A DNA stretch of 64,000 nucleotides from Phycisphaerales bacterium (GTDB lineage: Bacteria; Planctomycetota; Phycisphaerae; Phycisphaerales; UBA1924): the NCBI GenBank assembly GCA_029260495.1, contig JAJDDD010000010.1, positions 1-64,000 of the forward strand. The letters run 5' to 3'. The notes under the pieces were generated by a model. The model was not told where the DNA came from and searched no databases. It saw only the letters and a list, made by a program, of their open reading frames with translations. The stretch's first letter is position 1. Every line of letters starts with the position of its first letter. Of this stretch, positions 42,662 to 62,545 are shown piece after piece. A program made the translations under genes and the position numbers.

Positions 42662-43576
42662 ATGAATACTGCCCGGCTAGGTCATGCGCCCACACTGGAC
42701 ATTCACTTTGGGGACAATCTTCCCATCATTCAGGAGTTTCCCAGCGCGTCATTCGACCTGATCTACATCGATCCACCATTCAACACCGGCCGAACTCAGG
42801 CTCGGACTCAGATCAAAACTACGCGTGACGATAATGGCGACCGCGAAGGCTTCAAAGGGAAACGGTATCGAACGGTTCGGGTTGGAACAAAAGCCTTCAC
42901 GGATACCTTTGATGACTTTCTTGGTTTTCTCGAACCACGTCTTGAAGAAGTGTTTCGATTACTGAAACCAAACGGAAGCTTTTTTCTCCATCTTGATTAT
43001 CGCGAGGTTCACTACGTGAAGGTTCTACTGGACGGAATCTTTGGGCGCGATTCATTTATCAATGAAATTGTGTGGGCGTATGACTACGGGGCTCGCTCAA
43101 AGAAGAAATGGTCGGCGAAACACGACAACATCCTGTGGTATGCGAAGAACCCGAATGATTACACATACCGTTACGAAGACATCGATAGAATTCCGTACAT
43201 GGCGCCGGGTTTGGTGACGCCCGAGAAGGTGGCGCGGGGCAAGACGCCGACCGACACATGGTGGCACACAATCGTGAGCCCGAACGGGAAGGAAAAGACG
43301 GGGTATCCGACGCAGAAGCCGCTTGGAGTGATCAATCGTCTGATTCGAGTCCACAGCAACCCGGGCGATCGTGTGCTCGACTTCTTTGCGGGCAGTGGAA
43401 CAATTGGCGAAGCTGCGATCAAGCAGCACCGCAATGCCGTCCTTGTTGACAGCAACGAAGAAGCGATGTCGGTTATGGCGAAGCGACTGACATTCGCATG
43501 TCCCACGTTCCACAATTGGGCGCCTGATCCAGCCGATCTCCCGGAACCAACATTGCTCGATACGATCGGAGCATGA
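42662..43576 (+). CDS. Site-specific DNA methyltransferase (amino-methyltransferase, beta class)
   Basis: The product is 304 aa. The catalytic motif IV, LIYIDPPFNTG (D37-P-P-F40), precedes the AdoMet-binding motif I, VLDFFAGSGTIGEAA (~residues 239-253), the order that defines beta-class N6-adenine/N4-cytosine methyltransferases. TGYPTQKPLGVINRLI lies just before motif I, as usual. A target-recognition region is likely at ~60-110. The gene overlaps the next one by 4 bp (ATGA), and together they look like a type II restriction-modification unit. Target sequence not predictable from here. Confidence 0.92.
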   Translation: MNTARLGHAPTLDIHFGDNLPIIQEFPSASFDLIYIDPPFNTGRTQARTQIKTTRDDNGDREGFKGKRYRTVRVGTKAFTDTFDDFLGFLEPRLEEVFRLLKPNGSFFLHLDYREVHYVKVLLDGIFGRDSFINEIVWAYDYGARSKKKWSAKHDNILWYAKNPNDYTYRYEDIDRIPYMAPGLVTPEKVARGKTPTDTWWHTIVSPNGKEKTGYPTQKPLGVINRLIRVHSNPGDRVLDFFAGSGTIGEAAIKQHRNAVLVDSNEEAMSVMAKRLTFACPTFHNWAPDPADLPEPTLLDTIGA

Positions 43577-44160
43577 TGATTTTGGGCAATATAGTTGATC
43601 CCGAAGTACAGGCGCTTGCCGGAATTGCATCTACTCTTCAAGCAGATTACATGGCGAACGATCAGGCATGGATTGGTTCACCATTTGCATGGATTAAGCA
43701 ACGACCATCCAGAACTATTGGTGCTATTGGAGAAAAATTGCTGGCGGGATGGCTTGCCGCACGCGGATTCAATGTATCCCGATCCCCTGATTCGGACGCC
43801 GATCGTGTGATCGAAAGAAAAAGAGTAGAGATCAAATTCTCCACTCTGTGGACTGATAACCATATTTATAAGTTTCAACAACTACGAGATCAAGATTACG
43901 ACGTGGCGATTTGTCTTGGAGTAAGCCCGTTCGATGCACACTGTTGGGCTATCGAGAAGGCAGACGTTCTCAGCGCCTGGCATGAAGACGTAAATCGCGA
44001 AATCATAGGTCAACATGCCGAAGGCAAAGATACTGCCTGGATCACAGTGTCACCGTCATCACCTGGCAGATGGATAAGCCAATATGGTGGAACGCTGCGG
44101 CAAGGCCTCGATCAGATCAGCAAGATTACAGGCTTCACGCCGCCTCCCTTGAACGAATAG
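43573..44160 (+). CDS. Putative PD-(D/E)XK restriction endonuclease partner
   Basis: The product is 195 aa, translationally coupled to the methyltransferase. IGAIGEKLLAGWLAARGFNVSRSPDSDADRV followed by KRVEIKFSTLW fits the PD-(D/E)XK nuclease core: Glu54 in the first helix, an acidic residue at Asp73, Asp75 or Asp77, and the E86-I-K88 motif on the next strand. The YKFQQLRDQDYDVAICLGVSPFDAHCWAI segment fits the later strands. No similarity to a named enzyme was recognised. GC is clearly lower than in flanking genes (about 37-45% in sampled lines against ~60%), suggesting recent acquisition. Nuclease activity is inferred. Confidence 0.7.
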   Translation: MMILGNIVDPEVQALAGIASTLQADYMANDQAWIGSPFAWIKQRPSRTIGAIGEKLLAGWLAARGFNVSRSPDSDADRVIERKRVEIKFSTLWTDNHIYKFQQLRDQDYDVAICLGVSPFDAHCWAIEKADVLSAWHEDVNREIIGQHAEGKDTAWITVSPSSPGRWISQYGGTLRQGLDQISKITGFTPPPLNE

Positions 44161-61471: not shown

Positions 61472-62545
61472 CTACGCCACAATGTGAGTTTCTCCGCCGA
61501 CAGGACGAGCCTGATCGACGGCGGCGATAACTTCACTGGGACCGACCACATAGAGGAACTCTTTGTTTCGAAGGTGACTGACTCGACCCACCTTTTCGCC
61601 AGCGGGGTTGTGGATGCCGATTTGCGCACCGACGTAGCGCTTGTAGTCGGACTCGATCACGCGCAAGTCACCGAAACCTTCGAGAAGTTGCTCCATGACA
61701 GTGCGGCTCAGGTAGCCCTCGTTGCTAAAGGAAACAACAAAAGCTTTGCAATCGAGTGATTCCAGGAGCAGGCGCATCGCGTCGAGGCATTGGCGTTTGG
61801 AGTTGTAGGGACTCTTGCGCTTGCGGCAATCGACGCGCTTGCAGGCGACTCCATACACCGGTGGCTTGTCCCAGCGAACGAGGGACTCCCAGATGTGGTA
61901 GTTGGAGAGATAGGAATGCTGGTTGTATGGCGGATCTATATAGACGATGTCAGCGGTGAGTTTTTTTGCGGCTTCGATCGCGTCAAGGCATGATGCCGCG
62001 CCTTTTCCTGATGCAGCGCGGGGAAGAAGTTTGGGAACGCGCAAATGCAGTGGCTTGTGAGCGCGGGAGGCCCACTGTTTGAGATAGGCCATCTGGACGC
62101 CGGTGGTGGAGTCAACCCGGTCTGCGGCTTCCATAAGTGAGACGAGGGCGATCGCTTCAAGCTCCGGTTCGAGGTCGCGCTGCGCGATGGACTCGCGGAT
62201 GGCGTCCACGCGGGCGCCATTTTCAGGCTTGAAGAAACGGGACTTGATGCAGAACGTCTCAGTGAAGTAGCCGGGATCGGGCGCCAGTTGATTGAGTTCG
62301 TCGATGAGATCGGTCGCACGCTCGAGCCAGTCTTCAAGGTCAGATTGGATATAGGCGCGAGCGAGCGTCGCGGCGTAGGCGTTGTGATCGTTTGCAAGAA
62401 CGCGGAAGCTCGCCTGCTTCAGTGCGCAGCCGACGCGCGAGGTTCCGGAGAAGAGGTCAAGAACCGTTCCGTTCGGTTGAATCGCCTCGATGGCGCCAAC
62501 GATAAGCTGGGTCAATAGACGTTTTGAGCCGAGATATTTGATCAT
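61472..62545 (-). CDS. D12-class (Dam-like) DNA adenine N6-methyltransferase
   Basis: The product is 357 aa. KYLGSKRLLTQLI at the N-terminus and TVLDLFSGTSRVGCAL (motif I, ~28-43) come before the catalytic IVYIDPPYNQHSY (motif IV, DPPY near residue 200), the alpha-class order. A helical target-recognition insert lies between them. No restriction endonuclease gene is adjacent, so it looks like an orphan methyltransferase. It starts 30 nt downstream of the RNase R gene on the same strand and may be co-transcribed. Confidence 0.92.
   Translation of the reverse strand: MIKYLGSKRLLTQLIVGAIEAIQPNGTVLDLFSGTSRVGCALKQASFRVLANDHNAYAATLARAYIQSDLEDWLERATDLIDELNQLAPDPGYFTETFCIKSRFFKPENGARVDAIRESIAQRDLEPELEAIALVSLMEAADRVDSTTGVQMAYLKQWASRAHKPLHLRVPKLLPRAASGKGAASCLDAIEAAKKLTADIVYIDPPYNQHSYLSNYHIWESLVRWDKPPVYGVACKRVDCRKRKSPYNSKRQCLDAMRLLLESLDCKAFVVSFSNEGYLSRTVMEQLLEGFGDLRVIESDYKRYVGAQIGIHNPAGEKVGRVSHLRNKEFLYVVGPSEVIAAVDQARPVGGETHIVA

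Follow-up and report, generated by a model that had tools for sequence, protein, structure and literature searches.

Organization of the locus

In silico analysis of the window, a stretch of 64,000 nucleotides from a Phycisphaerales bacterium, revealed two adjacent genes encoding a beta-class DNA methyltransferase and a predicted PD-(D/E)XK nuclease (Table 1). An overlap of 4 bp between these genes had been proposed in an earlier note on this DNA, and both open reading frames are indeed present at these coordinates, with the ATGA common to both.

Table 1. Features of the methyltransferase-nuclease pair (positions within the window)
Feature	Position	Strand	Basis
DNA methyltransferase, beta-class N6-adenine (N6/N4), 304 aa	42662..43576	+	Pfam, PADLOC, nearest PDB sequence M.RsrI, motifs
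ATGA overlap of the methyltransferase and nuclease genes, 4 bp	43573..43576	+	sequence
Predicted PD-(D/E)XK type II restriction endonuclease, 195 aa, predicted site TTAA	43573..44160	+	PADLOC, AlphaFold2, fold matches
E54, active-site helix glutamate, usual but not universal	43732..43734	+	61/69 aligned; helix 46-63 in model
D77, first acid of the PD...ExK core	43801..43803	+	68/69 aligned
E86-I-K88, predicted catalytic E-x-K	43828..43836	+	E86 69/69, K88 68/69; model strand 83-91
Q102-Q103-L-R105-D-Q107, candidate recognition element	43876..43893	+	Q102, R105, Q107 69/69

The GC content amounts to 52.3% for the methyltransferase gene and 48.3% for the nuclease gene, the latter lying, as had been noticed previously, below both of its flanks (55.9% in the gene before the pair and 60.9% in the gene after it). 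The GC3 value of the nuclease gene is 0.44 versus 0.64-0.79 in five surrounding genes. Within the window, the pair as a whole (50.8% GC) falls into the lowest 0.24% of 1500-bp stretches, and the nuclease gene into the lowest 0.16% of 588-bp stretches.

The gene located 5' of the pair looks, by its sequence, like one for a PilZ-domain protein, and the gene located 3', on the opposite strand, encodes an acetate-CoA ligase (annotated as acs in its relatives). No regulator gene was noticed among the open reading frames adjoining the pair. The window contains a second methyltransferase, of the D12 type, at positions 61472-62545 of the minus strand (8.5e-35).

Methyltransferase

The methyltransferase matches the Pfam family N6_N4_Mtase (PF01555, 2.8e-47) and the PADLOC model MTase_II PDLC03300 (1.3e-140). 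Its assignment to the beta class had been based on a DPPF motif preceding DFFAGSG; both motifs have been found, at residues 37-40 and 240-246, respectively, and together with the PF01555 match they represent the SAM-binding and catalytic motifs of a type II restriction-modification (RM) methyltransferase. The nearest solved sequence is that of M.RsrI (1.2e-29, residues 81-278), and the beta-class catalytic domain is common to the RsrI methyltransferase (1nw8, 1eg2) and the window enzyme. The RsrI methyltransferase has a partner nuclease different from that of the window. No match to the methyltransferase was found at 1e-60 among 72,556 plasmids or at 1e-40 among phage records.

Nuclease family, predicted fold and active site

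The second protein matches the PADLOC model REase_II PDLC03515 (8.8e-46, model positions 7-173 of 186), and the PADLOC matches of both window proteins are strong and cover most of each sequence. The nuclease therefore has an existing family. Since the model output carries no enzyme name, the earlier remark that the protein could not be linked to a named restriction enzyme holds for the name but not for the family. The same model is matched by every one of the 69 aligned sequences, that of the window among them; the score of 153.9 bits for the window nuclease, versus 284.9 for the relative L066, indicates that the window protein is a distant member. Besides the window sequence, the alignment (A2) contains 66 of the 80 genome loci and two viral ones; truncation, frameshift, run-on or near duplication led to the exclusion of the other 14 genome loci. 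The nuclease also matches phrog_6927 (5.3e-14). Pfam yielded no match for it, and no NCBIfam match exceeded the cut-off; Pfam DUF6998 is matched weakly by 10 of the 69 family members (best 0.0018). Against solved-structure sequences, no convincing match was obtained with the single sequence (best E 0.26), and none up to E 10 with the 69-row profile. No match to the nuclease was found among the 72,556 plasmids.

The AlphaFold2 model of the nuclease (pLDDT 89.5, pTM 0.86) is placed among PD-(D/E)XK nucleases by Foldseek and VIA-align. This placement, which concerns a predicted and not a solved structure, agrees with the initial reading of the protein as a PD-(D/E)XK nuclease; a fold devoid of the core was not found. 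The best fold matches are I-Ssp6803I (2ost; Z 11.1, rmsd 3.1, 121 aligned), the N-domain of Eco15I (8q5o; Z 9.1, rmsd 2.8, 110 aligned) and NhoI (8q5n; Z 8.9, rmsd 5.6, 132 aligned), followed by Hjc (Z 7.8), 3ndh, NaeI, DpnI, EcoRV and PvuII. The first three resemble the window nuclease in fold, but their sequence identity to it is 11-16% and their gene context is different.

The nuclease assignment had originally been drawn from the arrangement of Glu54, Asp73/75/77 and Glu86-Lys88. All of these residues occupy the named positions, but not all of them belong to the active site: the conservation counts in the 69 sequences define a core of D77, E86 and K88 with the usual E54 (Table 1), while D75 lies outside it, its column being mostly Glu, and D73, kept in 57 of 69 sequences, is dispensable.

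Pairing and distribution among relatives

The scan of genome contigs yielded 88 relatives of the nuclease, 80 of which were kept, from Planctomycetota, Chloroflexota, Gemmatimonadota, Pseudomonadota, Actinomycetota, Meiothermus and others. Across these phyla the pairing is maintained: a methyltransferase is encoded upstream on the same strand in 78 of the 80 bacterial relatives, and in 74 of 80 the nuclease gene overlaps the methyltransferase gene or lies at most 60 bp away. The same 4-bp overlap recurs in 32 of the 78 paired relatives, the nuclease starts being chosen by script. The distances of the partner proteins correlate as well (Spearman 0.518, 64 rows, with 0 of 2000 permutations as high); for this comparison truncated, fused, double-methyltransferase, duplicate and some other loci were dropped beforehand, and the best matching methyltransferase segment was used.

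Of the two unpaired relatives, L064 is cut by the contig end. The other, L077 (2456-3022), is the sole bacterial copy without a methyltransferase inside its 5.5-kb locus; it carries K88R and Q103P and looks like a decaying orphan. Homologs lacking both the methyltransferase and the E-x-K residues, which the earlier note had named as speaking against its reading, are represented by this one bacterial case, and D...E-x-K is intact in the cyanophage copies that have no methyltransferase next to them.

The pair was also identified on three IMG/VR contigs, two of them nearly identical there, and a fourth contig carries the methyltransferase with a broken nuclease (L001-L004). Variant arrangements occur too. 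In L072, L076, L081, L084 and L086 a methyltransferase and a nuclease-like domain are fused in one open reading frame of 476-541 aa, and behind it stands another, separate copy of the nuclease, an organization for which a heterodimer with an asymmetric site is possible. In L074 and L085 two tandem methyltransferase open reading frames stand ahead of the nuclease.

Site avoidance in bacterial carriers

The 4-base palindromes were counted and compared with the maximal-order Markov expectation (observed/expected, O/E). In 25 carrier genome stretches, including the window's own genome, TTAA has a median O/E of 0.69 and is the second lowest of the 16 palindromes after CTAG (0.53); values below 0.6 were found in 10 of 25 carriers for TTAA and in 16 of 25 for CTAG. 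Pooled over 87 loci, TTAA is again second (0.72, with 0.55 for CTAG). CTAG is low in the control sets as well. There are 12 such sets, four from five same-family genomes and eight plasmids, and they are few and not phylum-matched. At a required expected count of 5 or more, by which 3 carriers and 1 control were dropped, the O/E of TTAA is below 0.6 in 9 of 22 carriers versus 0 of 11 controls, with medians of 0.71 versus 0.93 (rank test, one-sided p 0.02, uncorrected); in the other 13 testable carriers it is 0.6 or more. GATC, GTAC, CATG and AATT give carrier-control p values as low as that of TTAA or lower. The bacterial carriers support TTAA weakly, because CTAG is lower and four other palindromes test at least as well.

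Two further readings of these counts were rejected. The lowest mean O/E among the 16 palindromes, at first found for TTAA, is an artefact caused by a single zero count where about 1 was expected; once this zero is removed, the mean log2 O/E of TTAA is -0.57 and that of CTAG is lower. A longer site containing TTAA was discarded too, as the remaining TTAA in 12 sets show no clear flank preference.

Site avoidance in cyanophages

Phage records contain 13 matches to the window nuclease and 24 to the S-ShM2 protein. The cyanophage family T4-GC_685 / phrog_6927 is 36-37% identical to the window nuclease over about 125 residues and possesses the same D...E-x-K and QQxRDQ; unlike in the window's genome, TTAA is absent or rare in the carrier phages. 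In S-ShM2, TTAA occurs 0 times versus about 589 expected (144+26+145+142+132) in 178.9 of 179.6 kb. The observed and expected counts are 0/27 for S-SSM2, 0/31 for the IMG/VR contig L234, 1/95 for L236, 6/40 for L235 and 26/160 for S-BM3. As S-ShM2, S-SSM2 and L234 are near relatives, these amount to about four independent carriers. In six cyanophages outside the 24 matching records the O/E of TTAA is 0.77-0.92, and in three phages with a diverged homolog (31-33% identity), in which QQxRDQ is replaced, it is 0.66-0.97.

The QQLRDQ element may therefore be involved in site recognition: QQxR is retained in the TTAA-poor phage homologs whose protein was read (S-ShM2, L236) and replaced in the diverged homologs of the three phages retaining TTAA.

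The evidence for TTAA is stronger in the cyanophages than in the bacteria. The TTAA loss could stem from a host system of identical specificity, but such a system would leave the match between this loss and the presence of the gene unexplained. A warning comes from CCGG, which is absent or nearly so in almost all phages sampled, so that sites vanish for other reasons too. The ocean-virus homologs suggest TTAA as the site of the window nuclease, and we regard this prediction as probably correct; with phage homologs about 36% identical to it, a different site is possible. The specificity, previously described as unknown, is thereby narrowed to a best candidate that stays a predicted one.

MseI of Micrococcus has the site TTAA and a nuclease of about 186 aa. 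The TTAA signal in the phage homologs and the 186-position length of the family model both fit this description; no paper on the MseI genes was among the matches listed in the open-access literature. In the accessible parts of PMC6286503 and PMC4687349 TTAA is not mentioned.

A type II RM system of the same kind but with another site is unlikely, and AATT would be the best rival. In the window's own genome (760 kb sampled) AATT and GGCC are avoided (O/E 0.52 and 0.63), versus 1.62-2.02 and 0.76-1.01 in four same-family sets from five genomes without the nuclease; these relatives are GC-richer and the comparison is unmatched. Across the 25 carriers, however, AATT is not avoided (median 1.07, below 0.6 in 1 of 25, the own genome), and in the phage carriers it is only mildly avoided (0.59-0.99). 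Besides the pair, the own genome contains PF01555 methyltransferases at six loci, plus one D12 and one C5 enzyme over the cut-off; these could account for AATT and GGCC, and the avoidance of both is therefore unassignable. AATT was rejected as first-choice site on these grounds, and TTAA is preferred. The C5 methyltransferase of the own genome is located at G000:C9:11720-12841.

Acquisition of the pair

The nuclease was identified in 4 of 294 Planctomycetota genomes, the own one included, and is absent from all five same-family genomes compared. The same-family genome G270 keeps the genes preceding the PilZ-like gene, with its acs gene elsewhere, and no match to the pair was found in the approximately 1.5 kb behind its PilZ-like gene. 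An exact empty site for the pair was not found. The recent acquisition proposed in the earlier note is plausible on the basis of sequence comparison, though unproven: it fits the low GC content, the sparse occurrence in the phylum and the absence of the pair downstream of the PilZ-like gene in G270.

According to the accessible part of PMC4687349, site avoidance is seen in about half of 1774 site-genome pairs, oftener for long-resident systems, and missing avoidance is common with recently acquired ones. The own genome shows no avoidance of TTAA (O/E 1.29 in the 760 kb sampled), which fits a recent arrival of the pair.

Function of the pair

The pair is very probably a compact two-gene type II RM system of the ordinary virus-defence kind. 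This had been the first impression of the locus, and it is borne out by the upstream methyltransferase in nearly all bacterial relatives and by the PADLOC models matching both proteins. The methyltransferase would methylate a short palindrome of the host DNA, most likely at N6 of adenine. The nuclease, probably a dimer, would bind Mg2+ via D77, E86 and K88 (with E54) and cut the same palindrome when it is unmethylated, leading to the destruction of entering phage or plasmid DNA. The ATGA overlap suggests translational coupling, by which both genes would probably be translated as a unit, methyltransferase first.

It is rather improbable that an active methyltransferase is accompanied by a dead or silent nuclease, the pair then serving as a modification or epigenetic unit only. 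The host genome without TTAA avoidance would agree with such a state, but the nuclease frame is open, without stops, D77, E86, K88, Q102 and R105 are intact, and systems of recent acquisition commonly show no avoidance, as cited above. A homing endonuclease or Holliday-junction resolvase, which the best fold match to I-Ssp6803I and the close one to Hjc might indicate, is very improbable, since the nuclease gene overlaps the methyltransferase gene in a conserved pairing, the Z scores of two restriction enzymes, Eco15I (N-domain) and NhoI, come close to that of I-Ssp6803I, and the REase_II match counts against it. The nuclease gene, lying behind and overlapping the methyltransferase gene, has no intron location of the I-Ssp6803I type; the sole tRNA gene of the window is located at 735-807.

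Read as a type II RM system, the formerly unnamed pair gains a place in a defined family of nucleases, and a predicted site. The pair itself is of a known kind, and the surprising part is constituted by the phage copies, apparently protected by erased sites.

Phage copies and their methyltransferases

The S-ShM2 homolog (L007 3932-4429; also in pieces L237, L238, L280 and L281) is located directly behind a helicase gene. Within loci of 7-8 kb, S-ShM2, S-SSM2 and S-BM3 yielded no methyltransferase resembling that of the window. One annotated dam gene is present in S-ShM2, 89 kb from the nuclease, and two are present elsewhere in the S-BM3 genome; the two pieces of S-ShM2 that were checked show no depletion of GATC. 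In L234 and L235 the contig ends near the nuclease, so that the neighbours of one side are outside the contig.

In L236 (9911-12200) the 36% homolog is followed directly by two beta-class-like methyltransferase open reading frames (DPPY, SPPY), with TTAA at 1/95; this arrangement amounts to an RM-like set carried by a phage, in whose DNA the presumed site has likewise almost vanished. The designation of the nuclease as "solo" in all phage carriers was consequently rejected. As L234 and L235 are cut and L236 has methyltransferases, the combination of no adjoining partner and erased sites rests on the S-ShM2 group and S-BM3. In P-SSM7 (L240 14956-17229) two genes with the annotation DNA adenine methylase stand immediately behind a diverged nuclease homolog.

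On balance, it appears that this nuclease family spares its own genome in two ways: by a methyltransferase, in bacteria and some phages, or by erasure of TTAA, in S-ShM2-like cyanophages, where the phage enzyme could cut the DNA of the host or of a rival phage with no need of methylation. Phage relatives with neither an adjoining methyltransferase nor the presumed site would allow the specificity of uncharacterised nucleases to be read from the carrier genome, and they point to a restriction enzyme as a phage weapon against host DNA. Among the matches listed in the open-access literature (titles and abstract openings), no report of TTAA loss or of solo restriction enzymes in cyanophages was found, and the accessible part of PMC12707154 contains nothing on cyanophage nucleases.

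Several such phage enzymes of differing specificity may exist, as different palindromes are missing from other cyanophages. In stretches of 30-31 kb each, GTAC is found at 0/95 in S-SM1 (L245), and TCGA at 0/60 in S-SSM4 (L241) and 0/55 in ACG-2014d (L246). Each of these three phages has a gene of 170-198 aa after the helicase. P-SSM7 and ACG-2014f carry relatives of the S-SSM4 gene yet keep TCGA.
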